A stretch of 64,000 nt of DNA, taken from NCBI RefSeq assembly GCF_002176815.1, contig NZ_CP021648.1, positions 2,984,001 to 3,048,000 on the forward strand, written 5' to 3'. Below the pieces are notes generated by a model. That model worked only from the letters and a program-made list of their open reading frames with translations. It made no database searches and was not told the origin of the DNA. The DNA comes from Acidovorax sp. T1. GTDB lineage: Bacteria; Pseudomonadota; Gammaproteobacteria; Burkholderiales; Burkholderiaceae_C. A program made the translations under genes and the position numbers. Below, piece after piece: positions 626 through 62,845 of this stretch. How positions within the stretch are numbered: position 1 is the stretch's first letter; the number at the start of each line of letters is the position of its first letter.

Positions 626-2260
626 TCAGAACGCGGCGGGGCGATCCTCAGGCGCCAACTCTGCAAACGGCTGGATCGGGTTGAACCGCAGCCACGCGCC
701 CACAGGGATCTGCCCTGCGCGGTCGAGGTGGTACGGCGCCACGCAGCCGATGACCGGGTAGCCGCCGGTGAGCGGGTGGTCGGCCAAAAACAGCACGGGC
801 TGGCCGCTGGGCGGCACCTGCAGGGCGCCCAATGCCGTACCTTCGCTGGGTAGCTCGCCGGTGATGGCGCGGTCCAGTGGCACCTCGCCTGCCAGGCGCA
901 GGCCCACGCGGTTGGATTGGGGCGTGACCTGCCAGCGCTGCGCTGCAAAGCGGGCGATGGCCTCGGGCGTGAACCAGTCGGTGCGCGGGCCCATCACCAC
1001 GTCCAGCACCACGTCACGCTCCAGCGTGGGCAGGTCGGCGGGCGGCAGCTCGGGCGCGGCCACCACGCAGGTAGCCGGGGCGGGTCGCACGGCCAGCCAG
1101 TCGCCCACGGCCACGGGGGCGGGGCCCACATGGGCCAGGGTGTCGGTGGCGCAGCTGCCCATCACTGGCGCTTCGGCAAAGCCGCCGCGCACGGCCACAT
1201 AGCAGCGCGCGCCTGCGGTGGGTTGGCCCACGGCCAGGGTGTCGCCATCGGCCAGGGCCACGGCCTCGTAACGTTGCGCAGGCCAGCGCTGCCCGGCGGC
1301 CGTGGTCAGCGTCAGCACGGCATCGGCACCGGTGACGGCCACCACGTTCTCGCCCACGCTGCGCAGCTGCAGGCCACCGCCCACGGTCTCCAGCGCAGCC
1401 AGGTGGCTGGGGTTGCCCACCAGGCGGTTGGCGGCCTTGAGGGCGGCCTGGTCCATCGCCCCCGATGCCGACACGCCCTGCCCGGCCTGGCCGTGGCGGC
1501 CCAAGTCCTGGAAGACGGTGAGCAGCCCGGTGGCACGCACCTGCAACCCGGCCTGCCCTGCGGCAAGGCTTGGCTGCGTGCGGCCAGAGGATTCAAGGTC
1601 TTTTTGGCCTGTAGCGCTCTCTGCATAAGCGCTAGCAGCTATTGATTTTGTAGCAATATCCACAAAGCGCACGCGATAGCCTGGCTGCAGCAAGGCGGGC
1701 TGCGCGCGGGCAATGTCCCACATGGCCACGGGGGTGGTGCCAATGATTTGCCACCCGCCAGGGCTGGCCTGCGGGTACACGCCGCTGAAGGTGCCCGCCA
1801 GCCCCACAGAGCCCGCAGGCAGGCGGGTGCGCGGTGTGCTGCGGCGGGGTACGTTCAGGCTGGGGTGGCCGCCGCTCAGGTAGGCAAAGCCGGGCGCAAA
1901 GCCAGTGAAGGCCACGGTGTACTCGCTGCCCGTGTGGCGCTGCACCACTTCATCCGCAGTGATGCCCAGGATCTGCGCCACCTCGGCCAGGTCTTCGCCG
2001 TGGTAGTGCACCGGGATTTCGACCAAGGTATCGCTGCGCTCGGCGCGCTGCGACAGGTCGCGCTGCGCAATGTGCTGCACCAGCACGGCGGCGCTGGTGG
2101 CTGAGGGGCGGTAGCGCACCAGGATGGTCCGCGCAGCGGGGACCAGTTCTTCCACACCGGCCAGCGGGGTGTGCTGCAGCGAGGCCAGCAGCGCCAGGGT
2201 TTCGTCCAGGTCGGCCAGCTCGACGAGCAGCGAATTGAGGGTGACGGGCAAGAAACGCAT
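626..2260 (-). CDS. pxpBC: 5-oxoprolinase subunits B and C fused
   Basis: This 544-residue protein joins the two small 5-oxoprolinase subunits, which are separate proteins in E. coli. The PxpB (KipI/AHS1) part spans about residues 1-200 and contains GFAPGFAYLSG. The PxpC (KipA/AHS2) part spans about 235-544 and begins near VFQDLGRHGQAGQG. With PxpA they perform ATP-dependent ring opening of 5-oxoproline to glutamate. The linker at about residues 201-223 is encoded by a copy of the dispersed repeat and contains SIAASAYAESATGQ, so a mobile element is translated inside the enzyme. The gene starts 7 bases after the pxpA stop and is presumably cotranscribed with it. A biotin-dependent amidolyase role is an alternative because accC follows. 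Confidence 0.92.
   Translation of the reverse strand: MRFLPVTLNSLLVELADLDETLALLASLQHTPLAGVEELVPAARTILVRYRPSATSAAVLVQHIAQRDLSQRAERSDTLVEIPVHYHGEDLAEVAQILGITADEVVQRHTGSEYTVAFTGFAPGFAYLSGGHPSLNVPRRSTPRTRLPAGSVGLAGTFSGVYPQASPGGWQIIGTTPVAMWDIARAQPALLQPGYRVRFVDIATKSIAASAYAESATGQKDLESSGRTQPSLAAGQAGLQVRATGLLTVFQDLGRHGQAGQGVSASGAMDQAALKAANRLVGNPSHLAALETVGGGLQLRSVGENVVAVTGADAVLTLTTAAGQRWPAQRYEAVALADGDTLAVGQPTAGARCYVAVRGGFAEAPVMGSCATDTLAHVGPAPVAVGDWLAVRPAPATCVVAAPELPPADLPTLERDVVLDVVMGPRTDWFTPEAIARFAAQRWQVTPQSNRVGLRLAGEVPLDRAITGELPSEGTALGALQVPPSGQPVLFLADHPLTGGYPVIGCVAPYHLDRAGQIPVGAWLRFNPIQPFAELAPEDRPAAF
1591..1658 (+). repeat. Dispersed palindromic element inside pxpBC
   Basis: Copy of the element recurring across the window: GGCCTGTAGCGCTC, then ATAAGCGCTAGCAGCTATTG. 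It falls exactly in the PxpB-PxpC linker. Read on the minus strand, it keeps the frame open and encodes the same peptide theme (IAA..AY..SATGQ) as the copy inside fdsA. Confidence 0.88.
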
Positions 2261-11745: not shown

Positions 11746-11892
11746 ATGAAACTCACCCCTCGTGTTCGACCGCCTCGGCGGTCGCGCGAGCCATTGACCC
11801 CAGCATTGAGTGAAACGAAATGGAACTGACTCCTCGCGTTCGGCCGCACAGCGGTCGCGCGAGCCATTGACCCCAGCATTGAGTGAAACGAA
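11746..11892 (+). repeat. Two abortive tandem copies of the ureA start region
   Basis: Two units, 11746-11819 (74 bases) and 11820-11892 (73 bases), each begin like ureA (ATGAAACTCACCCCTCG and ATGGAACTGACTCCTCGC) and then diverge into GGTCGCGCGAGCCATTGACC and AGCATTGAGTGAAACGAA. The true ureA at 11893 begins with the same 18 bases. The copies stop in frame after 27 and 16 codons. The array therefore looks like slippage or recombination at the 5' end of ureA that also duplicated its leader. Confidence 0.88.
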
Positions 11893-12195
11893 ATGGAACT
11901 GACTCCTCGCGAAAAAGACAAGCTGCTGATCTTCACCGCCGCCCTGCTGGCCGAGCGCCGCAAGGCCCGGGGCCTCAAGCTCAACTACCCCGAGGCCATG
12001 GCCCTGATCAGCGCCGCCGTGATGGAAGGTGCCCGCGACGGCAAGACCGTGGCGCAACTCATGAGCGAAGGCCGCACCGTGCTGACCCGCGCCGATGTGA
12101 TGGACGGCATCGCCGAAATGATTCCGGACATCCAGGTGGAGGCCACCTTCCCTGACGGCACCAAGCTCGTCACCGTGCATCAGCCGATCGTTTGA
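11893..12195 (+). CDS. ureA: Urease gamma subunit
   Basis: This is the complete 100-residue gamma subunit ([19 protein letters not shown]; family length 100). It assembles with UreB and UreC into the nickel enzyme that hydrolyses urea to ammonia and carbon dioxide. Most homologues begin MKLTPRE; the abortive copy at 11746 retains that Lys codon, so the present second codon (Glu) may be a by-product of the duplication. No strong ribosome-binding site is visible; the leader is GAGTGAAACGAA. It is the first gene of the urease run. No ureD precedes it, which is unusual. Confidence 0.97.
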
Positions 12196-12229: not shown

Positions 12230-12844
12230 ATGCGCATCGCACACACACACCGCCACACAGTCGCTCTTATTTTTATAGCAATCAGCGCAGTATCCACAAG
12301 CGCTATCGCCCATACAGGGGCTGAATCCCACATCCACCACAGTTTTCTGAGCGGTTTTGCCCACCCGCTCTTTGGCCTGGACCACCTGGCCGCCATGGTG
12401 GCCGTGGGCCTGTGGAGCGCCCTGGCCGCACGCAGCGCCGGGCGCGATCTGCTGTGGGGCCCCGTGGGTTTTGCAGCCATGCTGCTGGCGGGCGCCGTGC
12501 TGGGGTTGCAGGGCGTGGCACTGCCTGCGGTAGAGCCGATGATTGCCGCGTCGCTGCTGGTCACCGGCCTGCTCGTGTGGTCGCGCCTTCGCGTGCCCGG
12601 CCTCGTGGCCGCGCTGGGCGTGGGGGTGTTTGCGGTGTTCCACGGCGTGGCCCACGGCCACGAGCTGGCGGGCAGCGACAGCGCCTGGCAAACCCTGGCG
12701 GGGATGCTGACGGCCACCGTGCTGCTGCACAGCGCAGGCCTGGCGGCTGGCTGGGCCCTGCGCCACCGCCATGTGTGGCTGGCACGCGCAGCCGGCGCTG
12801 GCGTGGCCGCGTTCGGCGGTGCGCTGCTGGCGCAAATGGCCTGA
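12230..12844 (+). CDS. ureJ: HupE/UreJ-type nickel permease
   Basis: The 204-residue HupE/UreJ protein has a signal-like N terminus, the metal-site motif [16 protein letters not shown] near residue 44, the second motif FHGVAHGHE and about six membrane helices. The family imports nickel, and ureJ is commonly inserted between ureA and ureB in this group of bacteria. Residues about 13-27 ([15 protein letters not shown]), which form the hydrophobic part of the signal sequence, appear to be encoded by a diverged copy of the dispersed repeat. Gaps of 34 and 26 bases to ureA and ureB fit an operon. Confidence 0.93.
12267..12310 (-). repeat. Diverged dispersed element in the ureJ signal sequence
   Basis: TTTTTATAGCAATCAGCGC followed by ATCCACAAGCGCTATCGCC aligns with the reverse form of the dispersed element (TTTTGATAGCTGCTAGCGC, ATCCATCAAGCGCTAGAGGCC). 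Several mismatches remain, so the assignment is weaker than for the other copies. If correct, the element supplies the hydrophobic core of the UreJ signal peptide. Confidence 0.55.
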
Positions 12845-12870: not shown

Positions 12871-13176
12871 ATGATCCCAGGCGAACTCTTCACCGAACCC
12901 GGCGAACACCCGCTCAACACCGGCCGCCGCACGCTGACCTTGGTGGTGCGCAACACCGGCGACCGCCCCATCCAGGTGGGATCGCACTACCACTTTGCCG
13001 AGACCAACAACGCCCTGGGCTTTGACCGCGCCGCCGCGCGCGGCATGCGGCTGAACATTGCATCGGGCACCGCCGTGCGTTTTGAGCCCGGCCAGCAGCG
13101 CACGGTAGAGCTGGTGGACTACGCGGGCGAGCGCCGCGTGTATGGCTTTCAGGGCCTGACGCAGGGCGCACTGTAG
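12871..13176 (+). CDS. ureB: Urease beta subunit
   Basis: The 101-residue beta subunit of urease starts at ATG 12871, where MIPGELF begins the conserved family start; the frame remains open upstream without homology. Conserved signatures include [17 protein letters not shown] and LDYAGERR-like [12 protein letters not shown] near the end. It is structural, contributing to the trimer that houses the UreC nickel site. A GGAG lies 7 bases upstream of the start. The 92-base gap to ureC is filled by a copy of the dispersed repeat. Confidence 0.97.
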
Positions 13177-13177
13177 A

Positions 13178-13243
13178 AATTTCAAGCCAAAACAGCCTCT
13201 AGCGCTTGATGGATAAGCGCTAGCAGCTATCAAAAATATAGTT
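13178..13243 (+). repeat. Dispersed palindromic element, reference copy
   Basis: This is one of the best-preserved copies. TAGCGCTT (13200-13207) and AAGCGCTA (13215-13222) form a perfect 8-base inverted repeat with a 7-base loop, followed by GCAGCTATCAA. It begins just after the ureB stop and ends 25 bases before ureC, so it is transcribed within the urease operon. Confidence 0.92.
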
Positions 13244-13268
13244 ACCAGTTCTCGCGGAGTACCCCACC

Positions 13269-15791: not shown

Positions 15792-16502
15792 ATGCGCGCC
15801 GACCGCCCCACGCCCCTGCCCGCCGCCAGCTTCTTGCAGCTGATGTGGCTCGCCTCACCCGCGCTGCCGGTGGGCGGTTTTTCGTATTCCGAGGGGCTGG
15901 AAAGCGCCGTCGAATACGCTGGCATCGACAGCGAGGCCGCGGTGGCCAACTGGCTGCTGGACCAGCTGCACATTGCCCAGGCGCGCGGCGACATGGCGCT
16001 GATCACCAAGGCCGTGGGCGCCTGGCGCCGCGCCGACTGGGATCGTGTGCGCGAGCTCAACGACTGGGTGCTGCACACCCGCGAAACCAGCGAGCTGCGG
16101 CTGCAAACCGAGCAGATGGGCCGCTCCATGGCCGACTGGCTGCGCAACCAGCACCAGGGCGATGCACAACGGATGCCCGCCGTGCGCCACCTGGCCGCCC
16201 TGCCCCCCACCTACCCCGTGGCGTATGCACTGGCCGCGTCCATCACCCAGGCCAGCGTGCGCGATGTGCTGCTGGCCTACGCCTTTGGCTGGGCCGAAAA
16301 CATGGTGCAGGCCGCCCTCAAATCGATGCAGCTGGGCCAGAGCGCCGGCCAGCGCATCCTCGCCCGCCTGGCCGAAGCCATCCCCGCTGCCGCCGACCAC
16401 GCCATCGGCCTGATGGACAGCGAGCGCCAGGCTTTCTCACCCATGCTGGCCATACTCAGCAGCCAGCACGAAGTCCAATATTCAAGGCTTTTTCGCTCCT
16501 AG
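15792..16502 (+). CDS. ureF: Urease accessory protein UreF
   Basis: The 236-residue helical chaperone UreF links UreD, UreG and apourease during GTP-dependent nickel insertion. The signature [18 protein letters not shown] lies near residues 20-40, and [13 protein letters not shown] follows later. The last residues (VQYSRLFRS) and the stop codon are read from the edge of a dispersed-repeat copy that starts around 16473, so the native C terminus may have been replaced by repeat-encoded residues. Family members often end near [14 protein letters not shown], so the effect may be only the stop. Confidence 0.95.
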
Positions 16503-16546
16503 CGCACGCACCGCCTGCGCAAGCAGCTATTGATTTAATAGTAACA
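16473..16546 (+). repeat. Dispersed element overlapping the ureF 3' end
   Basis: TCCAATATTCAAGGC, CTCCTAGCGC, CTGCGCAAGCAGCTATTGAT and TTAATAGTAAC follow the element in order, with the central inverted repeat changed. It covers the last codons and stop of ureF and fills the gap to ureG. Confidence 0.75.
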
Positions 16547-18995: not shown

Positions 18996-19140
18996 ATCCC
19001 ACCTCCCGTTTGATTGAATGAGGGCATCTTAGCGGCCGAAGATGGCTTGGCTGAAACCGCCAATGCAGGCCGCAGTGCATGGTGCGCAGCCGCCAAAGCA
19101 GCGCACACAATGGATATGAATGAAAACAGGCTCAACCCAT

Positions 19141-19182
19141 TTATTGGCAAGCGTTAGCAGCTATGTAACTCATAGCAATCGC
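19141..19182 (+). repeat. Partial dispersed element downstream of the globin gene
   Basis: TTGGCAAGCGTTAGCAGCTAT and CATAGCAATCG match the right half of the dispersed element; the left half is degenerate. It lies in the gap between lemA and the globin gene, 12 bases beyond the globin stop. Confidence 0.7.
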
Positions 19183-19193
19183 ATCCTGCAAGC

Positions 19194-19625
19194 TCACACG
19201 CCCTTGTTGCGCATCCAGTCGGCCGTGCCCATGAAGCTCTCTTTCAGCCGCGCCCGCAAGTCCTGCGGCACGCCGGTTTCGCCCATGGCCTGGTCCATGC
19301 AGGCCACCCACTGGTCGCGCTCCTTGATGCCGATGGCAAACGGCATGTGGCGCGCACGCAGGCGGGGATGGCCAAACTGGTCGGTGTAGTACGACGGCCC
19401 GCCCAGCCAGCCGCACAGGAACATGAAGAGCTTTTGCCGCGCATCGGCCAGCTCGCTGCCGTGGGCGGCACGCAGTTCGGCGTAGCCGGGCTCCAGATCC
19501 ATGAGGTCGTAGAAGCGCTCGGTCAGCGCGCGCACGCGCTCTTCGCCGCCGATCCATTCAAAGGGCGTTTCTGCGGCTGCAGGGTTGGCACGATCTTCGT
19601 GCGTATCAAGGTTTGGATTATTCAT
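19194..19625 (-). CDS. glbO: Group II truncated haemoglobin
   Basis: The 143-residue protein has the two-on-two globin pattern of group II (trHbO): FMFLCGWLGGPSYYTDQFGHP and RARHMPFAIG, the latter providing the proximal His, then ERDQWVACMDQAM. Such proteins bind oxygen, nitric oxide or peroxide and are linked to oxygen or redox stress handling. It appears monocistronic, with a copy of the dispersed element at each end. The upstream copy occupies the probable promoter region. Confidence 0.95.
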   Translation of the reverse strand: MNNPNLDTHEDRANPAAAETPFEWIGGEERVRALTERFYDLMDLEPGYAELRAAHGSELADARQKLFMFLCGWLGGPSYYTDQFGHPRLRARHMPFAIGIKERDQWVACMDQAMGETGVPQDLRARLKESFMGTADWMRNKGV

Positions 19626-19629
19626 ATAA

Positions 19630-19690
19630 AAACCGGCTCAAGCGCAATGCTATCAAGCGCTGACAGCTATCAAATTAATACTAAAGCAAC
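19630..19690 (+). repeat. Dispersed element upstream of the globin gene
   Basis: AACCGGCTCAAGCGC, ATCAAGCGCTGACAGCTATC and AAATTAATA reproduce the element with changes in the left arm. It ends 26 bases before the stop of the FtsX-type gene, so it lies between the two minus-strand genes. Confidence 0.8.
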
Positions 19691-33242: not shown

Positions 33243-36137
33243 TCAGACGATTTCGCTGCCGGTGCCCTGCAACACATCCACCGCCACCGCGCAGTACTTG
33301 AACTCCGGGATCTTTCCAAAGGGGTCCAGCGCAGCATTGGTGAGCAGATTGGCTGCCGCCTCCACATACGCAAACGGCATGAACACCGTGCCGCGCGGCG
33401 TGCCGTCGTCGCGGCGCACGCGCACCTGCAGCATGCCCCGCCGTGAACGGATGCCCACCAGCGCGCCGGGCGCCACGCCCAGCCGGGCGAGTTCATCGCC
33501 ATGCAGCGATGCGGTGGCCATGGGCTCGATGGCGTCCAGCACGGTGCTGCGCCGCGTCATGCTGCCGGTGTGCCAGTGCTCCAGCTGGCGGCCAGTGATG
33601 AGCACCAGCGGGTAGTCAGCGTCGGGCTTCTCGGCGGCCGGGATCACGCTGGCGGGTACCAGTTGCAGGCGGCCCGTGGGCGTCGGGAAGTTCTCGATGA
33701 AGACGATGGGCTGGCCGGGGTCGTCGGCCGTGAGGCACGGGTAGGTCACGCTGGAGTCGCGCTCCAGCCGGTCCCAGGTGATGCCCTCAATGCTGGCGTG
33801 CATGGCCTGGCGCATTTCTTCGTACACGGCGGCCACGCCCGATTCCTCGCCCGCATAGTTCCAGTCCAGGCCCATGCGCCGGGCGATCTGCTGAATGATC
33901 CACAAATCCGGCCGTGCATCACCCGGCGGGTTCAAGGCACGGCGGCCCATCTGCACCATGCGGTCGGTGTTGCTGGCGGTGCCGGTCTTCTCGGGCCAGG
34001 CGCTGGCGGGCAGCACCACGTCGGCCAGCCAGGCGGTCTCGGTCAAAAAGATGTCCTGCACCACCAGGTGCTGCAGGCTGGCCAGCGCGTGGCGCGCGTG
34101 GTTCAGGTCGGGGTCGCTCATGGCGGGGTTCTCGCCCATGATGTACATGCCGCGCACCTTGTGCGGGTCGGTGTCAGGCGCCAGGGCCTTGTGCATGATC
34201 TCGACGACCGTGTAGCCCGGCGCTTCATCGAGCTGGGTGCCCCAGAAGTCTTCAAACCACGCATGTGCCCCGGCGTTATCCACACGCTGGTAGTTAGGGA
34301 ACATCATGGGGATCAGGCCCGCATCGCTCGCGCCCTGCACATTGTTCTGGCCGCGCAGCGGGTGCAGGCCCGAGCCGGGCTTGCCGATCTGGCCGGTGAC
34401 GGCGCACAGCGCGATCAGGCAGCGCGCGTTGTCGGTGCCGTGCACATGCTGGCTCACGCCCATGCCCCAGAGGATCATGGAGGACTTGGCGGTGGCAAAC
34501 GCCCGCGCCACCTCGCGCAGCGCCTCGGCCGGGATGCCGCACACCGGCGCCATGGCCTCGGGGCTGCAGCCCATCACGTTGGCCTTGAGGGCCTCGAAGT
34601 TGTTGGCGCGATCCTTGATGAAGGCTTCATCCACCAGCCCCTCGTCGATCACCGTATGGATCAGCGCGTTGAGCATGGCCACGTCGGTGTCGGCCTTGAA
34701 CTGCAGGGTGCGCCAGGCGTGGCGGCCGATGTCGGTCACGCGCGGGTCGGCCAGCACGATCTTCGCGCCGCGCTTGGCAGCGTTCTTCATCCAGGTCGCC
34801 GCCACCGGGTGGTTGGCCGTGGGGTTGGATCCGATCACGAAGATCAGCTCGGCATGCTCCACGTCGTGCACCGGGTTGCTCACCGCGCCGGAGCCCACGC
34901 CTTCGAGCAGCGCGGCCACGCTGGACGCATGGCACAGCCGCGTGCAGTGGTCCACGTTGTTGCTGCCAAAGCCGGTGCGCACCAGCTTCTGGAACAGGTA
35001 GGCCTCCTCGTTGCTGCCCTTGGCCGAGCCGAAGCCCGCCAGCGCCTTGGGGCCGTGGGTGTCGCGCAGGCTTTTGAGCTGCACTGCGGCGAGATCCAGC
35101 GCCTCGTCCCAGGTCGCCTCGCGGAAGGTGCTGCGCCAGTCGGCGCCGTAGGGGCGTACCTCCTTGGGCACACCGGGCTTGCGGATCAGCGGCACCGTGA
35201 GGCGGTCGGGATGGTGGGCGTAGTCAAAGCCGAAGCGCCCTTTCACGCACAGGCGGCCGTGGTTGGCGGGGCCGTCGCGGCCTTCCACGCTGATGATCTT
35301 TTCATCGCGCACGTTGTAGGTGATGAGGCAGCCCACGCCGCAAAACGGGCAGACCGAATCCACCTTGCGGTCCACCTTTTGCGAGCCGATGTGCGTTTTG
35401 GGGCTGAGCGCGCCCGTGGGGCAGGCCTGCACGCATTCGCCGCAAGCCACGCAGGTGCTGGCCGCCATGGGGTCGTCGAGGTCAAACACGATCTTGCTGT
35501 CTGCCCCGCGCAGCGCGTAGCCGATCACGTCGTTCACCTGTTCCTCGCGGCAGGCGCGCACGCAGCGGTTGCACTGGATGCAGGCGTCCAGATTCACCGC
35601 CATCGCGGGGTGACTGAGATCGGGCGCAGGCTGCTCGCGGCGCAGGGCTTGGAGGGCCGGACGCACGGCCACACCCAAGCGATCCGCCCACTGGCTCAGC
35701 TCGCCGTGTTGGCCCACCGTTTCAGCATTTTTTGAATCAAATTGGCCTGTAGCGCTTGATACATAAGCGCCACCAGCTATCAATTCAGGAGTATCTGATT
35801 TGCCATCGTTCCACCGGTAGCCCACGTCCGGCATGTCCGACAGCAGCATCTCCAGCACCATCTGCTGGCTCTTGCGTGCACGCGGGCTGGCCGCCTGCAC
35901 CTTCATGCCTTCAGTCGGCGCGCGGCAGCAGCTGGGGGCCAGCGTGCGCTCGCCCGCAATCTCGACCACGCAGGCGCGGCAGTTGCCGTCGGGGCGAAGG
36001 CCGTCGGTGTAGCAAAGGTGCGGAATCTCCACCCCGTGGCGTTGCGCGGCTTTCAGGATGGTTTCGCCAGGGTGGGCGGTGACGGGCTGGCCGTCCAGCT
36101 CGAAGGCCACGCCGCAGGTTGGTTGCAACGCGCTCAT
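33243..36137 (-). CDS. fdsA: NAD-dependent formate dehydrogenase catalytic subunit
   Basis: The 964-residue soluble catalytic subunit has an N-terminal [2Fe-2S] domain (Cys42, Cys53, Cys56, Cys70), two [4Fe-4S] motifs (CIQCNRCVRAC, CVACGECVQACP), the bis-MGD domain opening with CPFCGVGC, and the metal ligand Cys in TRLCHASSV. With FdsB/FdsG it oxidises formate and reduces NAD in the cytoplasm. Residues about 115-138 (PELIAGGAYVSSATGQFDS) are encoded by a dispersed-repeat copy inserted in frame between the [2Fe-2S] domain and the [4Fe-4S] motifs. The start overlaps the fdsGB stop (ATGA). Confidence 0.96.
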   Translation of the reverse strand: MSALQPTCGVAFELDGQPVTAHPGETILKAAQRHGVEIPHLCYTDGLRPDGNCRACVVEIAGERTLAPSCCRAPTEGMKVQAASPRARKSQQMVLEMLLSDMPDVGYRWNDGKSDTPELIAGGAYVSSATGQFDSKNAETVGQHGELSQWADRLGVAVRPALQALRREQPAPDLSHPAMAVNLDACIQCNRCVRACREEQVNDVIGYALRGADSKIVFDLDDPMAASTCVACGECVQACPTGALSPKTHIGSQKVDRKVDSVCPFCGVGCLITYNVRDEKIISVEGRDGPANHGRLCVKGRFGFDYAHHPDRLTVPLIRKPGVPKEVRPYGADWRSTFREATWDEALDLAAVQLKSLRDTHGPKALAGFGSAKGSNEEAYLFQKLVRTGFGSNNVDHCTRLCHASSVAALLEGVGSGAVSNPVHDVEHAELIFVIGSNPTANHPVAATWMKNAAKRGAKIVLADPRVTDIGRHAWRTLQFKADTDVAMLNALIHTVIDEGLVDEAFIKDRANNFEALKANVMGCSPEAMAPVCGIPAEALREVARAFATAKSSMILWGMGVSQHVHGTDNARCLIALCAVTGQIGKPGSGLHPLRGQNNVQGASDAGLIPMMFPNYQRVDNAGAHAWFEDFWGTQLDEAPGYTVVEIMHKALAPDTDPHKVRGMYIMGENPAMSDPDLNHARHALASLQHLVVQDIFLTETAWLADVVLPASAWPEKTGTASNTDRMVQMGRRALNPPGDARPDLWIIQQIARRMGLDWNYAGEESGVAAVYEEMRQAMHASIEGITWDRLERDSSVTYPCLTADDPGQPIVFIENFPTPTGRLQLVPASVIPAAEKPDADYPLVLITGRQLEHWHTGSMTRRSTVLDAIEPMATASLHGDELARLGVAPGALVGIRSRRGMLQVRVRRDDGTPRGTVFMPFAYVEAAANLLTNAALDPFGKIPEFKYCAVAVDVLQGTGSEIV
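35724..35795 (+). repeat. Dispersed palindromic element inside fdsA
   Basis: TGAATCAAATTGGCCTGTAG, CGCTTGATACATAAGCGCCA and CCAGCTATCAATTC reproduce the full element, including outer flanks seen in intergenic copies. It is read through on the minus strand without a stop and adds about 24 residues. Confidence 0.93.
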
Positions 36138-38032
36138 GGCTGGGCTCCCTTCGGCAGTTGCTCGGCCAGCGGGCTGTTGCGCGGCTTGGGCAGGTCGCCC
36201 GGCCAGGGCCCCTCGCCCACTTCGTGCGCAAAGTATTTGTGGATACAGCGGATGGGGTTGGGCGCAGCCTGGCCCAGGCCGCAGATGGAAGCGTCGGCCA
36301 TTACCTGTGCCAGGTCGTCGAGCAGTTCTTCATCCCACTTCGGCGCTTGCATCAGCGTGGCCGCCTTGGCCGTGCCGACGCGGCAAGGCGTGCACTGGCC
36401 GCAGCTTTCGTGCTCAAAAAAGCGCATCACGTTCAGCGCCGCGTCGCGCGCGCGGTCGTGCTGGCTGAGCACGATGACGGCGGCCGAGCCGATAAAGCAG
36501 CCGTAGGGCTGCAACGTGTCGAAGTCCAGGGGAATCTGGTTCAGGCTGGCGGGCAGGATGCCGCCTGAGGCGCCGCCCGGCAGGTACGCATAGAGCTGGT
36601 GGCCGTCCAACATGCCGCCGCAGTATTCGTCGATGAGTTCCTGCACCGTGATGCCCGCAGGCGCGAGCTTGACGCCAGGGTGCTTCACCCGGCCGCTCAC
36701 GCTGAAACTGCGCAGTCCCTTGCGGCCGTTGCGGCCAAAGCTGGCAAACCACTGCGGCCCGCGCTCCACGATGTCGCGCACCCAGTACAGCGTCTCGAAG
36801 TTGTGCTCCAGCGTGGGCCGGCCGAACAGACCCACCTGCGCGATGTAGGGCGGGCGCATGCGGGGTTCGCCACGCTTGCCTTCGATGCTCTCGATCATGG
36901 CCGACTCTTCGCCGCAGATGTAGGCGCCCGCACCCCGGCGCAGCTCGATGTGCGGCAGGGGGCATGGGGGCTGGGCATGCAGGTCGTCCAGCGCCTTTTG
37001 CAGCAGCGCTCGGCAGCCGTGGTATTCGTCGCGCAGGTAGATGTAGATAGCCTCGGTGCCCACCACCTGGGCGGCGATGAGCACGCCTTCCAGAAAGCGG
37101 TGCGGGTCGCGTTCCAGATACGTGCGATCTTTGAACGTGCCGGGCTCGCCTTCGTCGATATTGACGGCCATCAGGCGTGGCGCGGGTTGGTCCCGAACAA
37201 TGCGCCACTTGCGTCCCGCCGGAAAGCCCGCGCCCCCCAGGCCGCGCAGGCCCGAATCCTCCATGGCCGCAAGCACGGCCTCGGCATCCCGCTCGCCGTT
37301 GACCAGCGCGGCGGCCAGCTGGTAGCCACCGTGGGCGCGATAGGTGGCGAGGTCGGTGTGGGCAGGACTGACGGAGTCCGGCTGCGCAGGCACGCTTTGC
37401 TCGGCCAGCGCTGCAATATCAAAATTGATAGCTGCCAGCGCTGGTGGATGAAGCGCCAGAGCCCGATTTGGCTTCAAACTGACCGCTTCCAACACCGCAT
37501 CCACGGTAGCGTGCGGCACCGGGCACTGGTGCACCACGGCCACCGGCGCCTGCTCGCAGCGGCCCACGCAGGGCACGGCCACCACCTGCACGTCGCCCTG
37601 CCCGGCCGCAAGCAGGCGCTCGGGCAGCGTGGCCAACAGTTCGCGCGCGCCCGCCATGCTGCAGCTCAGGCTGTCGCACACCCGCAGCACCAGACGGGGC
37701 GCCTGGGCATCCTCGCCGCGCACGATCTCAAAGTGGTGGTAGAAGCTGGCCACCTCATACACCTCGGCCATGGGCAGGTTCATCTGCTTGGCCAGCGCCA
37801 CCAGGTGCCGGTCGTGCAGCACGCCGAAGCGGTCGTTCAGGCGGTGCAGGTATTCAATGAGCAGGTCGCGCCGAAAGCCAGTGGCCGGGCGCGGGCCCAG
37901 CAGCCGCGCCACATCGGCCATGGCAGCGTCTTCAGGCTGGCGGCCCTTGAGGCGGCTTTTGCGGCGGATGCGCTCGCGCATGTCGTCCGGTGTGCCCAGG
38001 GGCACGGCGGCGGTTGGCGGGGTGGTTTTCAT
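36134..38032 (-). CDS. fdsB: Fused NAD-dependent formate dehydrogenase FdsG-FdsB
   Basis: In this 632-residue fusion, residues about 35-180 are the FdsG (NuoE-like) thioredoxin-fold [2Fe-2S] domain (RVCDSLSCSMAG, VPCVGRCEQAP). About 215-632 form FdsB (NuoF-like), with the FMN/NAD site GLRGLGGAGFPAGRKW and the [4Fe-4S] motif ESCGQCTPCRVG. It accepts electrons from FdsA and reduces NAD. The two parts are separate genes in several known fds operons. The linker at residues 184-207 (LKPNRALALHPPALAAINFD) is encoded by a dispersed element in the opposite orientation to the fdsA copy. No fdsD gene is seen after fdsA. Confidence 0.94.
   Translation of the reverse strand: MKTTPPTAAVPLGTPDDMRERIRRKSRLKGRQPEDAAMADVARLLGPRPATGFRRDLLIEYLHRLNDRFGVLHDRHLVALAKQMNLPMAEVYEVASFYHHFEIVRGEDAQAPRLVLRVCDSLSCSMAGARELLATLPERLLAAGQGDVQVVAVPCVGRCEQAPVAVVHQCPVPHATVDAVLEAVSLKPNRALALHPPALAAINFDIAALAEQSVPAQPDSVSPAHTDLATYRAHGGYQLAAALVNGERDAEAVLAAMEDSGLRGLGGAGFPAGRKWRIVRDQPAPRLMAVNIDEGEPGTFKDRTYLERDPHRFLEGVLIAAQVVGTEAIYIYLRDEYHGCRALLQKALDDLHAQPPCPLPHIELRRGAGAYICGEESAMIESIEGKRGEPRMRPPYIAQVGLFGRPTLEHNFETLYWVRDIVERGPQWFASFGRNGRKGLRSFSVSGRVKHPGVKLAPAGITVQELIDEYCGGMLDGHQLYAYLPGGASGGILPASLNQIPLDFDTLQPYGCFIGSAAVIVLSQHDRARDAALNVMRFFEHESCGQCTPCRVGTAKAATLMQAPKWDEELLDDLAQVMADASICGLGQAAPNPIRCIHKYFAHEVGEGPWPGDLPKPRNSPLAEQLPKGAQP
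37413..37482 (-). repeat. Dispersed palindromic element in the FdsG-FdsB linker
   Basis: On the plus strand, AATTGATAGCTGCCAGCGC, GATGAAGCGCCAGAGCC and TTGGCTTCAAACTGA are the reverse complement arrangement of the element. The copy lies precisely between the FdsG and FdsB domains. Confidence 0.88.
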
Positions 38033-40026: not shown

Positions 40027-42132
40027 ATGCCGTCTGCACGCAAACTTTTTGTCACCACCGCCCTGCCCTACGCCAATGGCAACTTCCACATCGGCCACAT
40101 CATGGAATACATCCAGGCCGACATCTGGGTGCGCACGCAGCGGCTGCTGGGCAACGCGGTGAATTTTGTCGGTGCCGACGACACGCACGGCGCGCCCATC
40201 ATGATCGCCGCCGAAAAAGCCGGCAAAACGCCCCAGCAGTTCGTGGCCGACATCGCCGCCGGGCGCCAGCAGTACCTCGATGGTTTTCACATCAAATTCG
40301 ACAACTGGCACAGCACCGACGCGCCAGAAAACCACCAGCTGGCGCAAGACATCTACCGCGACCTCAAGGCCAACGGCCTGATCGAGACGCGCACCATCGA
40401 GCAGTTCTTCGACCCCGAGAAGGCCATGTTCCTGCCGGATCGCTTCATCAAAGGCGAATGCCCAAAGTGCCATGCCAAGGACCAGTACGGCGACAACTGC
40501 GAGGTCTGCGGCGCCGTGTATGCGCCCACCGACCTCATCAACCCGTACTCGGCGCTGTCGGGCGCCAAGCCGGTGCTCAAAAGCTCCGAGCATTTCTTCT
40601 TCAAGCTGTCGGACCCGCGCTGCGTGGCATTTTTGGAAGACTGGACGCAAAACGGCCGCCTGCAGCCCGAGGTGGCCAACAAGGTGCGCGAGTGGTTCAG
40701 CGTGCGCACCAACCCCGACGGCACAACCAGCGAAGGCCTGGGCGACTGGGACATCTCGCGCGATGCGCCCTACTTCGGCATCGAAATTCCTGATGCGCCA
40801 GGCAAATACTTTTATGTGTGGCTCGACGCGCCCATCGGCTACCTGGCCTCGCTGAAGAACCTGCTCGAAAAGCGCGGCGAAGATTACGACGCCTACATGG
40901 CCGACCCGGCGCTGGAGCAGTACCACTTCATCGGCAAGGACATCGTCACCTTCCACACCCTGTTCTGGCCGGCCACGCTGAAATTCAGCGGCCGCAAGGT
41001 GCCCGACTCGGTGTTCGTGCACGGCTTTTTGACGGTGAACAACGGCGAGAAGATGAGCAAGAGCCGGGGCACGGGCCTGGACCCGCTCAAGTACCTGGGC
41101 CTGGGCATGAACGCCGAGTGGCTGCGCTACTACCTGGCTACCAAGCTGAGCAGCCGTAACGAGGACATCGACTTCAACGCCGACGACTTCATGGCCCGCG
41201 TCAACAGCGACCTGATCGGCAAGTACATCAACATAGCCTCGCGCGCGGCCGGCTTTATCGCCAAGCGCTTTGGCGGCCAGCTCGGCGAGGTGTCGGCCGA
41301 CGGCGACGCGTTGCTGGACCACCTGCGCACCGTGGCGCCGTCCATCATCGAGCTGCTGGCCGAACGCGAATACGGCAAGGCCCTGCGCGAAACCATGCTG
41401 CTGACCGACCGCGTGAACGCCTACGTGGACCAGAACAAGCCCTGGGAGCTGGCCAAGCAGGACGGCATGGAAGGCCGCCTGCAAGACGTGTGCACCACCT
41501 GCATCGAGGCCTTTCGCCTGCTCACCATCCTGCTCAAGCCGGTGCTGCCAGCGCTGGCCGCGCAGGTCGAAGCGTTTTTGAAAGTGCAGCCATTCACCTT
41601 TGCCGACGCCGCCACCATGCTCGGCAAGGGCCATGTGATCGGCGAATACAAGCACCTGATGCAGCGCGTGGATGCCAAACAGCTTGAAGCATTGTTTGAG
41701 GCCCCAGCGCAGGCAGCACCTGCGCAAGCAGCTACAGAAAGCGTAGCACCCGGCGGCGAGGAACTGGCCCCCACCATCACCATCGACGACTTCACCAAGA
41801 TCGACCTGCGCATCGCGCTGATCGTCAACTGCGAGGCCGTGGAGGGCTCGACCAAGCTGCTGCGCCTGACGCTGGATGTGGGCGAGGGCACGGACACGCA
41901 GGGGAATCCCATCACCCGCAACGTGTTCAGCGGCATCGCCAGCGCCTACCAGCCCGCCGACCTGATCGGCAAGCACACCGTGATGGTGGCCAACCTGGCG
42001 CCGCGCAAGATGAAGTTTGGCGTGAGCGAAGGCATGGTGTTGGCCGCCAGCCATGGCGACGAGAAGGCCAACCCCGGCATCTACGTGCTCAACCCCTGGC
42101 CGGGCGCCACACCCGGCATGCGCGTACGCTGA
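40027..42132 (+). CDS. metG: Methionyl-tRNA synthetase
   Basis: This 701-residue class I synthetase charges initiator and elongator tRNA-Met. HIGH is present at residues 21-24 (FHIGHIMEY), a four-cysteine zinc knuckle is in [17 protein letters not shown], and KMSKS is in GEKMSKSRG near residue 342. The C-terminal tRNA-binding domain begins about residue 585 ([12 protein letters not shown]). The Ala/Gln-rich linker before it (about 560-578) contains a partial dispersed element. A strong terminator follows. Confidence 0.98.
41718..41749 (+). repeat. Partial dispersed element in the metG linker
   Basis: ACCTGCGCAAGCAGCTACAG and AAAGCGTAGCACC match the right half of the short form of the element (GCGCAAGCAGCTATTG, AGCATAGCAA at 45733-45760). 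It is again at a domain junction, but it is only a partial match. Confidence 0.5.
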
Positions 42133-42847: not shown

Positions 42848-42920
42848 GGAATGGAGGCAAGCAAGCAACGCGCCAGACGGCGTGGCGGCTGACCGCCGCG
42901 CCCACGGCGCCCGCTGCACG

Positions 42921-42987
42921 ATTTTCAATCATATCGGCCTGCAGCGCCTATCTATAAAGCGCCATAAGCTATTAAATAAATAGCAAC
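42921..42987 (+). repeat. Dispersed element between yitT-like and sulP genes
   Basis: TTTTCAATCATATCGGCCTG, CAGCGCCTATC, AAAGCGCCATAAGCTATTAA and ATAGCAAC follow the element in order. It lies in the divergent region between the YitT-like and SulP genes and could affect both promoters. Confidence 0.88.
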
Positions 42988-43101
42988 AGAATGAACAGCA
43001 GCTAACCGGGATGCGGTCGCCACGGTTGCGTATGCTCACTGGCTCACTACACTGGAGCCACAGGCCCCGGCCCTCGCTTTTTAGCTGCACCCACTTCATC
43101 C

Positions 43102-45492: not shown

Positions 45493-45699
45493 ATGTCCAT
45501 TTTCCGCCGTCCCGACTACCAGTCCGAAGCCACCCAGTTCATCGAGCAGCTCAAAGCCCAAAGGCCCGAGCTGGATGCGCAGCAGCGTGCGGGCCGCGCC
45601 CTGCTGTGGGACAAGCAGGTGGACCGCAAGATCTGGGGCGAATACCGCGATGCCCAGGTGCCGCAAAAGCCCTACGTCTATCAGACCAATGCTGATTGA
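45493..45699 (+). CDS. DUF3460 family protein
   Basis: The 68-residue protein starts at ATG 45493 (MSIFRRPDYQSEATQFIEQL) and ends with PQKPYVYQTNAD. It matches DUF3460, a short conserved betaproteobacterial family of unknown function commonly found just before scpA, as here. It is cytoplasmic and largely helical, with no membrane segment. The 64 bases before scpA are a dispersed-repeat copy. Confidence 0.88.
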   Translation: MSIFRRPDYQSEATQFIEQLKAQRPELDAQQRAGRALLWDKQVDRKIWGEYRDAQVPQKPYVYQTNAD

Positions 45700-45701
45700 G
45701 C

Positions 45702-45761
45702 ATGAAAATGGCCTCTTGCGCTTTACCAGCAAGCGCAAGCAGCTATTGATAGCATAGCAAT
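45702..45761 (+). repeat. Dispersed element between DUF3460 and scpA
   Basis: ATGAAAATGGCCTCTTGCGC, TTTACCAGCAAGCGCAAGC, AGCTATTGATAG and CATAGCAA form a full copy whose arms read TTGCGCTT / AAGCGCAA. It fills the gap up to the scpA start codon. Confidence 0.9.
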
Positions 45762-45763
45762 CC

Positions 45764-49152: not shown

Positions 49153-49165
49153 GCCATCGCCGCCA

Positions 49166-49232
49166 ATTTTTAATAAAACAGGGCTGTAGCGCTTATCCAG
49201 CAAGCGCCAGCAGCTCCTTTTTTTATAGTGAC
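49166..49232 (+). repeat. Dispersed element supplying the start of the DTW gene
   Basis: AATAAAACAGGGCTGTAGCG, CTTATCCAGCAAGCGCCAGC, AGCTCCTTTTTTTATAGTGAC is a full copy. Its right end contains the GTG at 49228 that begins the next gene. Confidence 0.88.
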
Positions 49233-49875
49233 ACCGCTCAGCGCCAGTCGTCCGCGCTGCCCCACCTGCCTGCGCCCGCACAGCGCCTGCATCTGCCGCT
49301 GGGCCACCCCGGTGGCGCACCGCACCGAGGTGCTGATCCTGCAGCACCCGCTGGAGCTGCACGAGGCCAAGGGCACGGCCCGGCTGCTGCACCTGAGCCT
49401 GCCGCACAGCCGCATGGTGACGGGCGAACAGTTGGACCCCAGCGCGCTGCAGCCGCTGCTGACAGCGCCATTTGCAGCAACGGACGCAGCCCACACCCCG
49501 CGCCACGCACTGCTGCTCTACCCCGAGGCCCCGCAAGACGCCGCCCTGGGCATTGCCACCCCGCCGCCGCTGGACCCGGCCTGGCTGCCAACGCCAGAGC
49601 GCCTGCGCCTGGTGGTGCTCGACGGCACCTGGCGCAAAAGCCGCAAGATGCTGCACCTGAACCCGTTGCTGCAGCAGCTGCCGCGCCTGCCGCTGCGCGC
49701 ACTGCCGGCCTCGCGCTACCGCATCCGCTCGGCGCGCCAGCCGCACCAGCTCTCTACCCTGGAGGCCACCTGCGCGGCACTGGCGCAACTGGAAGCCGAC
49801 CCGGACCGGTTCGAGCCCCTGCTCCGCGCCTTCGACGGGTTTGTGGCGCAACAAGCGGCCTGGCAGGGCCGGTAA
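49228..49875 (+). CDS. tapT: DTW-domain tRNA-uridine aminocarboxypropyltransferase
   Basis: The 215-residue DTW-domain protein has the N-terminal cysteine set CPTCLRPHSACIC and the hallmark VLDGTWRKSRKML; YRIRSARQPHQLSTLEA follows. Characterised DTW proteins attach an aminocarboxypropyl group to uridine in tRNA (acp3U) using S-adenosylmethionine. The start is a GTG at 49228 lying in the end of a dispersed-repeat copy; no ATG is available before the first conserved cysteines. The name follows E. coli TapT by similarity. Confidence 0.86.
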   Translation: MTPLSASRPRCPTCLRPHSACICRWATPVAHRTEVLILQHPLELHEAKGTARLLHLSLPHSRMVTGEQLDPSALQPLLTAPFAATDAAHTPRHALLLYPEAPQDAALGIATPPPLDPAWLPTPERLRLVVLDGTWRKSRKMLHLNPLLQQLPRLPLRALPASRYRIRSARQPHQLSTLEATCAALAQLEADPDRFEPLLRAFDGFVAQQAAWQGR

Positions 49876-49917
49876 GGGCGGCAATGCCATCGCAATGGCG
49901 AGCCGCTGGATCAGCAA

Positions 49918-49978
49918 ATTACTATCAAAAACATAGCTTCTAGCGCTTTACCAATAAGGGCCAGAGCCAAAAAATACT
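49918..49978 (-). repeat. Dispersed element between convergent genes
   Basis: ACTATCAAAAACATAGCTTC, TAGCGCTTTACC and AATAAGGGCCAGAGCC are a reverse-type copy with a damaged right arm. It lies between the converging DTW and pabBC genes. Confidence 0.78.
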
Positions 49979-49985
49979 CAAAACA

Positions 49986-51773
49986 TCACGGCACCAATTC
50001 AGCCGCCAACCAGCCGCGCAGGCTGTTAACAAACGCCCAGGCCTGCACACGCGGCACATCCTCTACGCGCACCACAGCCTCGGTCAGGCGCCCCTCGCGC
50101 AGGGCCACTGCGCGGCCCACGCCGGGCAGCAGGCCGCAGGCCAGTGGCGGCGTGACCCAGCGGCCGTCCAGCAGCATGGCGATGTTGCCAAACGTGCATT
50201 CGGTGATCTCGCCGGCTTCGTTGTAAAGCACGGTGTCGAACACACCGGGCGTGGTGGGCGCAAACGCTGCGTAGTGCGCGCGGCGCGTGGTCTTGTAGCG
50301 CACGAATTCGCCATGGGCTTCATCCAGCGGGCGGTGGGCCAGTTGCAGGCGCACCGGCTCGGGCGTGGGCTGCAGGGCAAAGGCTTCGGCGCGGGGCTGG
50401 CCGCGCCCGTCCAGCAGCAGGCGCACGCGCCATGCGCCAGCGGGGTGGCTGGCGGCCAGCGCCTGCAGGCAGTGCTGCACGGCCGCAGCGTCGAACGGCA
50501 CGTTGAAATGCGCGGCCGTGCCTTGCAGCCGCGCCAGATGTTCAGCCAGATGGCGGAACTGGCCCGCTTGCAGCGCCAGGGTTTCGAGCAGATCGAAGGG
50601 CTGGCTGGCGCGCAGGGCAAAAGCGCGCTTGTGGCGCCATTCGTTCCATTCGGCACCGGCCTGGGCGCCCGAGGTGATGCCGCTGCCAATGCCGCAGCGT
50701 GCCTGGCCATCGCGCAGCACCACGGTGCGAATCGGCACGTTGAAGGTGGCGCGGATGCCCCCCGCGCCATCCGGCCGCACCACGCCGATGGCGCCGCAAT
50801 AGATGCCGCGCGGGCCTGGCTCCAGCGCGTGGATGGCCTGCATGGCACGCACCTTGGGCGCGCCGGTGATCGAGCCGCAGGGAAACAGCGCGCCAAACAC
50901 GTCGCCAAGCCGGGTGCCGGGCCGGGTGCGCGCCTGCACATCGGACGTCATCTGCCACACGGCCGGCAGCGCTTCGGTATGAAAAAGCCGGGGCACCTGC
51001 ACGCTGAAGGGCTCGGCAATGCGCGAGAGGTCGTTGCGCAGCAGGTCCACGATCATCACGTTTTCGGCGCGCTCCTTGGGCGAGGCACGCAGGGCGGCGG
51101 CATGGGCGGCATCCTGCTGGGGCGTGGCGCCGCGCGGCGCCGTGCCCTTCATGGGCCGGGTGAGGATATGGCCGGCCGCGCCGCCGCCCGGCCCGCTGTG
51201 CCAGTCGAAAAACAGCTCGGGCGAGACGCTGAGCACCTGCTCGTCGCCCATGTCGAAGCAGGCCGCATAACCGCCCGGCTGCGCGCGCTGCAGGGCCGCA
51301 AACAGGGCGTGGGCGGGTTGCGCCCCGCCGCCCTGCACGCTGGCCACCGTCTGCGCCGTGTAATTGACCTGGTAATACTCGCCCCGGGCGATGGCCTGGT
51401 GGATGGCGGCCAGGGCCGCATCAAACTGCGCGCGCCCCTGCACGGTGTGCCAGTGCAATGTGGGCGCATCCTGGGGCGGCAGCTCGGCAGCGGGCCAGGG
51501 CAGCGCCGCGTCGTGGATGGCAAACCAGGCCAGCGGGCCATCGGCGGGGTGGGTCTGCACGGCGGCGTCGAAGGCCGGCGCGGCCTCGTAGCACAGCGCG
51601 CCGATGCACCAGGCGCCGCCCTCGGCGGCGGCCTGCACGGCGGCCAGCACCGCGCGCACCTGGGCCGGCTCGCGCGCCACCAGCACGGCGCGCGGCGTGC
51701 CAAAGGCATGGCGCAGGTGCGGCGCACCGGGGTCGTTCGGGTTGGCAAAATCAATCAGTGCGGTTGGAACCAA
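49986..51773 (-). CDS. pabBC: Fused aminodeoxychorismate synthase component I and lyase
   Basis: This 595-residue bifunctional protein makes p-aminobenzoate for folate. Residues about 1-370 are PabB (GEYYQVNYT, TRPMKGTAPRG, RAENVMIVDLLRNDL, PCGSITGAPKVRAM). About 385-595 are PabC, a PLP-dependent lyase (VRYKTTRRAHY, NEAGEITECTFGNIAML). The start is a TTG at 51773 with GGAGG five bases upstream; there is no in-frame ATG before the conserved core, and a stop derived from the dispersed repeat lies just upstream. PabA is expected elsewhere. Confidence 0.93.
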   Translation of the reverse strand: MVPTALIDFANPNDPGAPHLRHAFGTPRAVLVAREPAQVRAVLAAVQAAAEGGAWCIGALCYEAAPAFDAAVQTHPADGPLAWFAIHDAALPWPAAELPPQDAPTLHWHTVQGRAQFDAALAAIHQAIARGEYYQVNYTAQTVASVQGGGAQPAHALFAALQRAQPGGYAACFDMGDEQVLSVSPELFFDWHSGPGGGAAGHILTRPMKGTAPRGATPQQDAAHAAALRASPKERAENVMIVDLLRNDLSRIAEPFSVQVPRLFHTEALPAVWQMTSDVQARTRPGTRLGDVFGALFPCGSITGAPKVRAMQAIHALEPGPRGIYCGAIGVVRPDGAGGIRATFNVPIRTVVLRDGQARCGIGSGITSGAQAGAEWNEWRHKRAFALRASQPFDLLETLALQAGQFRHLAEHLARLQGTAAHFNVPFDAAAVQHCLQALAASHPAGAWRVRLLLDGRGQPRAEAFALQPTPEPVRLQLAHRPLDEAHGEFVRYKTTRRAHYAAFAPTTPGVFDTVLYNEAGEITECTFGNIAMLLDGRWVTPPLACGLLPGVGRAVALREGRLTEAVVRVEDVPRVQAWAFVNSLRGWLAAELVP

Positions 51774-51779
51774 ATGGGC

Positions 51780-51824
51780 CTCCAGGGCTTGCAGAATCTG
51801 CGCGAGCAGCTATGAAAAAAGGAT
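51780..51824 (+). repeat. Partial dispersed element upstream of pabBC
   Basis: GGGCTTGCAGAATCTGCGC and GAGCAGCTATGAAAA match the short form of the element. It lies in the leader of pabBC, where it supplies the in-frame stop just upstream of the TTG start. It is also part of the 197-base divergent region with queE. Confidence 0.6.
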
Positions 51825-51970
51825 TGACGGCAGCCGCCGCAAGCGCGGCACCGTAGCCCAATGCCCCGGCTGCAAGGCATTGCCAGCCAGCCAAAAGACG
51901 GGCGTCTGACCGGCGCCGGGCACTAGCGAAGATAATCCCCCACCCCGCTCGTCGCTCCAACCCGCACGCA

Positions 51971-62580: not shown

Positions 62581-62640
62581 GCCCGGCCCCATGGGTTTCG
62601 AACCCGATCGGGCCCTGGCGCCTGTTCACGGCATGTCAAT

Positions 62641-62705
62641 GCTATTCAATTAATAGCTGCAAGCGCTTATACATCAAGCACTACAGCCTGATTTCACCCA
62701 AAAAG
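62641..62705 (-). repeat. Dispersed element between panC and lysA
   Basis: ATTCAATTAATAGCTGCAAG, CGCTTATACATCAAGCACTA and CAGCCTGATTTCACCC are a reverse-type copy. The 265-base gap between panC and lysA otherwise shows only a short GGGTTTCGAACCC dyad at 62594-62606. Confidence 0.88.
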
Positions 62706-62845
62706 CCGATCTATCGCAAGGCAACGCCATCGGCGGGCCGCGCTGCGGGTGCTGTTCAGAATGAATGCCCGGTAAACTTCAACGCCCCGGGTCCAACGAT
62801 GGACCCACCGCACACTTTCGCTTCTTCCAGCACCCGCATCGCCCC

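Follow-up and report, generated by a model that had tools for sequence, protein, structure and literature searches.

The 64,000-nucleotide stretch of Acidovorax sp. T1 analysed here (referred to as the window; G000:C1:2984001-3048000, from a genome of 4.42 Mb in four contigs) contains fdsA, the gene for the formate dehydrogenase alpha subunit, and within that gene a 72-bp dyad motif which recurs in many copies along the chromosome, in coding as well as intergenic DNA. At three of four further genes compared among genomes the motif is, on the evidence of the alignments, one acquired in place, on native codons, and as a whole it is possibly less like a jumping repeat and more like a chromosome-wide DNA label. 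Tentatively, and with less than even confidence, it is interpreted as an uptake-type DNA signal that would mark the cell's own chromosome, working most like the DNA uptake sequence (DUS) of the Neisseriaceae, although it is not classed as a DUS.

The motif was defined by an nhmmer profile built from 73 copies and was searched for in a chromosome sample of 864 kb, consisting of 40 evenly spaced 20-kb stretches and the window. At E<=0.01 this sample holds 129 non-overlapping copies while its order-1 shuffle holds none, an over-representation on the chromosome of the kind that characterizes DUS and the uptake signal sequences (USS) of the Pasteurellaceae. The density of ~150 copies per Mb extrapolates to ~600 copies on the 4.1-Mb chromosome. 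A pattern search of the genome, in which symmetric copies are counted twice, returned 225 forward and 232 reverse matches, against 2 + 2 for the reversed pattern. The consensus, CGAGATTTTGAGTCAAATTGGCCTCTAGCGCTTATCGATCAAGCGCTAGCAGCTATCAATTTAATAGCAATT, was derived from 128 ungapped copies (one of the 129 being omitted) and has an information content of 58.6 bits, with 43 positions above 0.5 bit; its best-conserved parts are GCGC...GCGC and AGCTAT, the A/T blocks lie outside these, and the ends and the loop are weakly conserved.

The distribution of the motif is uneven among genomes and among the contigs of a single genome. Thirty of 35 same-genus relatives possess at least 50 pattern matches and are here called motif-rich, the remaining five having 2-16; for example, the motif-poor genome G030 has 16 matches in 4.3 Mb, and G031 has 0+2. 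Outside the family, 24 genomes gave at most nine matches each, whereas a family-wide draw of 200 genomes yielded 26 with at least 50 matches, belonging to 19 genera, several of which also contain a poor member. Within the genome under study, the minor contigs C2-C4, which are probably plasmids, carry one copy in 315.5 kb where 47.1 would be expected, i.e., the scarcity outside the chromosome that is also a property of DUS and USS. Pairs of copies less than 1 kb apart are half as frequent as at random (9 vs 18.7, 95% interval 12-26). Around two copies on the chromosome (L134 and L135; G000:C1 near 2245765 and 1953977) near-identical stretches were observed, apparently representing a larger repeated segment.

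The fdsA gene, identified by open reading frame (ORF), domain and homologue searches, occupies 33243..36137 on the minus strand and encodes 964 aa. Its motif copy lies at 35725..35796 on the plus strand (nhmmer 35727-35794, E=1.8e-17), the gene itself reading the minus strand, and is translated in frame and free of stops as TPELIAGGAYVSSATGQFDSKNAE. In the protein, the [2Fe-2S] domain covers residues 10-83 and the 4Fe-4S motifs begin at about residue 178, and the motif peptide falls between them. An earlier note on this DNA, which described a dispersed palindromic element read through without stops at this place in FdsA, is thus borne out by the profile match, by the 129 copies in the sample and by the domain borders. 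A repeat search of the window returned the fdsA copy as one of six, and its position and 72-nt spacing are the same in 5/5 syntenic relatives; those close FdsA homologues that have a name bear that of Acidovorax. Over 27 genomes, rare codons in the motif of fdsA have been kept, ATA in 26/27 and GCT in 27/27, codons that make up 2.3% of Ile codons and 5.3% of Ala codons, respectively. Furthermore, the score of the fdsA site rises with the motif density of the genome (rho 0.74, p=1e-05; 27 genomes with G000 kept, uncorrected for phylogeny).

The FdsA linker, measured from W to HGEL, was compared among 120 homologues, these being among the matches listed. The motif-peptide pattern is present in 84 of them, with linkers of 33-37 residues; the other 36 have linkers of 8-47 residues and include twelve (P0089-P0096 and P0098-P0101) in which 27 or 29 residues contain a diverged motif-like peptide. 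Among the remaining 24, which lack a motif peptide, 21 linkers measure 8-21 residues. (A further comparison of 80 named FdsA loci leaves out 21 that yielded no linker under the search pattern.) The motif region was present in 26/26 FdsA proteins extracted from the genus, the protein under study included and some of them diverged, and also in that of G026. It is absent from the FdsA of G031, whose linker is identical to that of P0097, a protein named Verminephrobacter aporrectodeae, while in G030 the core of the site is decayed and the outer arms are retained. Among the homologues examined the motif peptide is confined to Acidovorax and near relatives, and no distant homologue shares it. The earlier statement that the element adds about 24 residues therefore holds as a difference in length (33-37 against mostly 8-21 residues), whereas insertion, or alternatively linker expansion, is possible in fdsA because the motif-bearing linkers are longer.

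Other G+C-rich palindrome-like or repeat-like peptides were observed at the same FdsA linker in L033, L069, L049, L053, L056 and P0114, which suggests that this linker may be a hotspot accepting several repeat families; the repeat-like cores of L033, L069, L049, L053 and L056 have only 1-2 matches inside each locus.

A different picture was obtained from four further genes, encoding TrpF, MutS, ArgF and an APH-family protein, which were compared with 23 other genomes. The segment containing the motif measures 147 nt in TrpF and 156 nt in MutS in 14/14 same-genus genomes, including the motif-poor genomes G002, G005, G031 and G032, in which the residues remain alignable and the nucleotides differ. 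Eight TrpF segments from other genera fall short by four residues, the difference lying in the flank that follows the motif. For ArgF, the rich genomes share a segment length of 156 nt with G002, G031 and the outgroup G075 of another genus; G005 and G032 have four residues fewer, and nine genomes of other genera three fewer. Against solved structures, TrpF aligns gap-free at the motif with 1lbm (presumably the Thermotoga maritima protein) and MutS shows a two-residue difference from 5x9w (which we take to be that of Neisseria gonorrhoeae), while DapF, a further motif-bearing protein, exceeds its solved homologues by 10-11 residues. The APH-family gene is 10 residues shorter in two motif-poor genomes; motif-poor G002 retains motif-like sequence there, and motif-rich G033 lacks the motif with the length unchanged.

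These sites were scored with a matrix made from the copies of the genome under study, the tested sites included, and this genome (G000) was excluded from the comparisons of rich with poor genomes. Eight rich genomes score higher than 15 poor ones (ArgF, TrpF and MutS, p 2e-06; APH, p 2.8e-04), the genomes being phylogenetically non-independent; against the five poor genomes of the same genus the values are 7.8e-04 for ArgF, TrpF and MutS and 0.023 for APH. Motif-poor G030 has kept reduced scores at ArgF (34.5), MutS (41.0) and APH (33.0). Because no 24-residue gap opens in the alignments with motif-poor relatives, there appears to have been no insertion at three of the four genes of the kind known from Rickettsia palindromic elements (RPEs), and an absence of exactly one element length from homologues was not found at trpF, mutS or argF. 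The proposal of the earlier note that an inserted mobile element comparable to an RPE is involved thus may hold for fdsA, with its longer linkers, and finds no support at trpF, mutS and argF. Its suggestion that the peptide was selected as a harmless one is not upheld: the native codons, the rare codons kept in fdsA and the relation of site score to motif density argue for a genome-wide process acting on DNA rather than on the peptide.

The places occupied by the copies were determined relative to genes called with our own codon-usage script. Of 129 copies, 36 lie inside genes (33 called genes), 68 are intergenic and the other 25 extend across a gene edge; these give 21 overlaps with gene ends and seven with gene starts, some copies reaching into two genes. 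Ninety-one copies that are not internal have both neighbours called, and 28 of these are situated in convergent and six in divergent gaps, compared to 81 convergent and 80 divergent among 511 background gaps longer than 30 nt. The copies inside genes occur in both orientations and in several reading frames. Domains were scanned in 29 of these 33 genes, and the copy midpoint falls outside Pfam domains in 18/31 cases (28 proteins; 10.3 expected, p=0.0012), and in 15/22 cases for proteins with at least two domains (7.6 expected, p=0.00035); for DapF the borders of the first half were assigned manually (22-140), and UvrA, whose overlapping ABC matches give no clean domain borders, was left out. 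Copies in linkers are found, for example, in FdsA, FdsB, a PxpB/PxpC-type protein, MutL, DnaX (two copies), a MocR-type protein, methionyl-tRNA synthetase and an aconitase-type protein. In-frame translation of the dispersed element, which the earlier note described for fdsA, thus extends to many other genes, often at permissive places.

Replication and repair functions are frequent among the genes concerned, which include mutS, mutL, uvrA, dnaX, the gene for an error-prone polIII alpha and an addA-type gene. They account for 6/28 motif genes and 0/28 length-matched controls (one-sided p=0.012), in a small set for which the naming libraries differ: names of the test genes come from Pfam, and for eight of them from NCBIfam, and those of the controls, drawn from a pool that includes island genes, from NCBIfam at E<=1e-20 (7/28 unnamed). 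At L164:12110-18079 a 1989-residue UvrA-type protein was observed that looks like two UvrA halves in tandem; residues 1022-1046, close to where these join, correspond to a motif copy. At L122 (G000:C1:3047665-3050704) an ORF spanning 346 codons or more, which resembles gpsA, begins MKIVVLGAGAWGTALA with its ATG inside a motif copy; this copy, ~1.2 kb past the end of the window, provides the start codon and the first residues.

The facts of distribution, site score, native codons and weak covariation between the arms (see below) point to a motif that acts at the level of DNA and is read genome-wide. According to the mechanism proposed, some reader would recognise the motif as double-stranded DNA, and the motif would be kept near its consensus wherever the protein or the intergenic DNA tolerates it, the FdsA linker included. 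If the putative reader were the uptake machinery, the motif would label chromosomal DNA so that it is taken up preferentially during natural transformation; biased uptake and recombination could then spread and repair its copies, and lineages losing the reader would let theirs decay. The native codons, permissive places, poor minor contigs, maintenance genes, possible dialects and start codon all suggest a likeness to uptake sequences. In the parts of the published accounts drawn on here and below (PMC2346458, PMC3630211, PMC1939737, PMC2229807 and PMC7811141, jointly for uptake sequences and RPEs), DUS and USS are present in hundreds to thousands of chromosomal copies, at permissive sites in coding and intergenic DNA and in the core genome in preference to acquired DNA; point mutation is considered to be their origin, and they favour repair and other maintenance genes. 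They also have lineage dialects, supply the start codon of some genes and form dyads in Simonsiella. As required sequences they have been tied to Neisseria and the Pasteurellaceae. Origin by substitution matches what was found at trpF, mutS and argF; the picture is less clear at the APH-family gene, shorter in two poor genomes, and at fdsA, with its longer linkers.

With regard to transformation itself, Acidovorax temperans and A. facilis are reported to be naturally transformable, A. temperans yielding transformants only with DNA of the same species, and Verminephrobacter eiseniae to be competent, with data taken as selective DNA binding (PMC4212676). It is conceivable, albeit a conjecture that we hold only loosely, that the motif represents a third and independent uptake-sequence system: a 72-bp dyad label of Acidovorax and scattered genera of the Comamonadaceae, which would spread across coding sequence by substitution, driven by uptake, and decay throughout the genome upon loss of its reader.

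A number of observations weigh against uptake as the function. In the study just cited, neither A. delafieldii nor A. defluvii was transformed and their DNA failed to transform A. temperans (PMC4212676), and since loci bearing these names (L032 and L071, respectively) carry the motif, sharing it fails to explain the reported species barrier. Likewise, selective uptake in the Verminephrobacter lineage need not use the motif, given the motif-free G031. ComEC and DprA were detected in 32/32 genomes, rich and poor alike (one ComEC below the cut-off), by searches that also match non-competent controls. The motif, at ~72 bp and 58.6 bits, is far longer than the 9-12-bp core with flanks of DUS and USS, from which it also differs in its host, a Comamonadaceae chromosome. 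In fdsA its presence coincides with a longer linker, as expected of an insertion. Counts per 20 kb are no more even than random (variance/mean 1.23), and sites of intermediate quality are few, 13 of 144 sites above -5 scoring below 30, so that gradual birth of copies is not favoured. The bias towards repair genes and linkers is common to repetitive extragenic palindromic (REP) elements (PMC3733652), and the genomes compared share ancestry. Finally, a special synonymous constraint on the fdsA motif was considered and dropped: synonymous difference in the motif segment is 0.116, low beside its flanks (0.235 and 0.215), yet windows of equal length elsewhere in the gene go down to 0.10.

The main rival explanation, serious but on balance doubtful, is a dispersed repeat resembling a REP or a miniature inverted-repeat transposable element, which would spread by insertion, with or without a REP-associated tyrosine transposase (RAYT), the fdsA copy being an old insertion. 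The copies would then have survived in intergenic DNA, at gene ends and in linkers, which is consistent with the 68 intergenic, 25 edge and 36 internal copies, with the excess in convergent gaps and with the longer FdsA linkers. The patchy distribution in the family and the paucity of intermediate sites also agree with it. REPs of the GTAG and CGTC families are, like the motif, dispersed palindromes with a preference for gene ends, and intragenic cases in linkers and in replication and repair genes have been reported (PMC3733652); the main text of that survey does not mention Acidovorax, Comamonadaceae, Polaromonas, Delftia or Variovorax. The motif differs from REPs in its length, in a 128-copy consensus that lacks the GTAG/CGTC tag and in its few close pairs, and insertion of motif length is not seen at trpF, mutS and argF; little arm covariation and near-absence from the minor contigs are further points against such a repeat. 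The genome does encode three Y1_Tnp proteins, yet the ~10 kb around these genes contain one copy, on one side, no more than the density of the genome, and at none of the three loci is the Y1_Tnp/RAYT gene flanked by the motif on both sides as in the GTAG class.

RPEs resemble the motif in that a palindromic element is read in frame in many unrelated proteins, as is the case here for 36/129 copies in 33 genes, a likeness judged by description. They are insertions of 105-146 bp, whereas three of the four further genes lack an insertion of motif length.

It is unlikely that the motif is the binding site of a chromosome-organising or nucleoid protein, maintained by selection at individual sites. 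The dyad, the occurrence in both orientations and on native codons, the near-absence from the minor contigs and the few close pairs would suit such a site; however, no gradient between ori and ter and no strand bias is evident by eye in the 40 sampled windows, and five of 35 same-genus members lack the motif or hold decayed remains of it. Sites of such proteins are usually shorter than its 58.6 bits.

An RNA hairpin acting in mRNA stability, termination or pausing, its presence in coding sequence being incidental, is improbable: the fdsA copy has a predicted fold of -22.1 kcal/mol (z -2.85) and gene ends are preferred, but in-gene copies lie in both orientations, the 128 copies exhibit weak arm-to-arm covariation (largest z 2.9) and no clear excess of G-T pairs, several species have an interrupted fdsA stem but retain its outer arms, and Rfam at gathering score returned nothing for the element. 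Changes that had seemed compensatory by eye, at window position 45691 and in the copies of one relative, failed as covariation over the 128 copies, and RNA structure is rated low for this reason.

The profile search of the window at E<=0.05 returned 15 copies, of which, besides that of fdsA, three lie in interdomain linkers. Next to fdsA, an fdsB-type gene with a fused FdsG-like domain (36134..38032, minus strand; 632 aa, identified by ORF and domains) contains a copy at 37412..37483 (minus strand), which reads SLKPNRALALHPPALAAINFD and has the thioredoxin-like [2Fe-2S] domain (54-182) on one side and the 51K domain (from 258) on the other; motif matches ~1.2-1.3 kb upstream of fdsA are also present in L042, L048, L056, L061 and L067, loci of other names. 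A second copy, at 1587..1658 (plus strand), occupies the linker of a PxpB/PxpC-type (CT_C_D + CT_A_B) fusion gene at 626-2260 (minus strand). A degenerate third copy, at 41680..41751 (plus strand), precedes tRNA_bind in the methionyl-tRNA synthetase gene (tRNA-synt_1g + tRNA_bind), in a linker whose length varies among relatives by multiples of 3.

Five copies on the plus strand lie outside called genes, at 13175..13246 (E=9e-19), 16475..16546 (E=4e-11), 42917..42988 (E=4e-15; the same position in G011 and G033), 45691..45762 (E=5e-16; motif-like sequence at the same place in 5/5 relatives) and 49162..49233 (E=2e-14). Additional copies were found on the plus strand at 19109..19180 (E=1e-05), 19615..19686 (E=8e-10) and 51758..51829 (E=1e-11), and on the minus strand at 12259..12330 (E=3e-06), 49917..49988 (E=1e-09) and 62637..62708 (E=9e-12). 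The window also includes a perfect 61-nt direct repeat with 73-nt spacing at 11778-11911, and its sole Rfam match, to 5_ureB_sRNA, lies elsewhere, at 13430-13719 on the minus strand.

No earlier description of the motif was found in the open literature searched, which was judged largely by title. Should it prove to be REP-like instead, it would still represent a large repeat tolerated in coding sequence and, within that literature, one without a description. If, on the other hand, it does mark chromosomal DNA for uptake, the repeat-like peptides of many Acidovorax proteins would be explained without a mobile element, and a third case of uptake sequences would be added in which rich and poor members occur within one genus, making the old question of drive versus selection in their maintenance directly testable.

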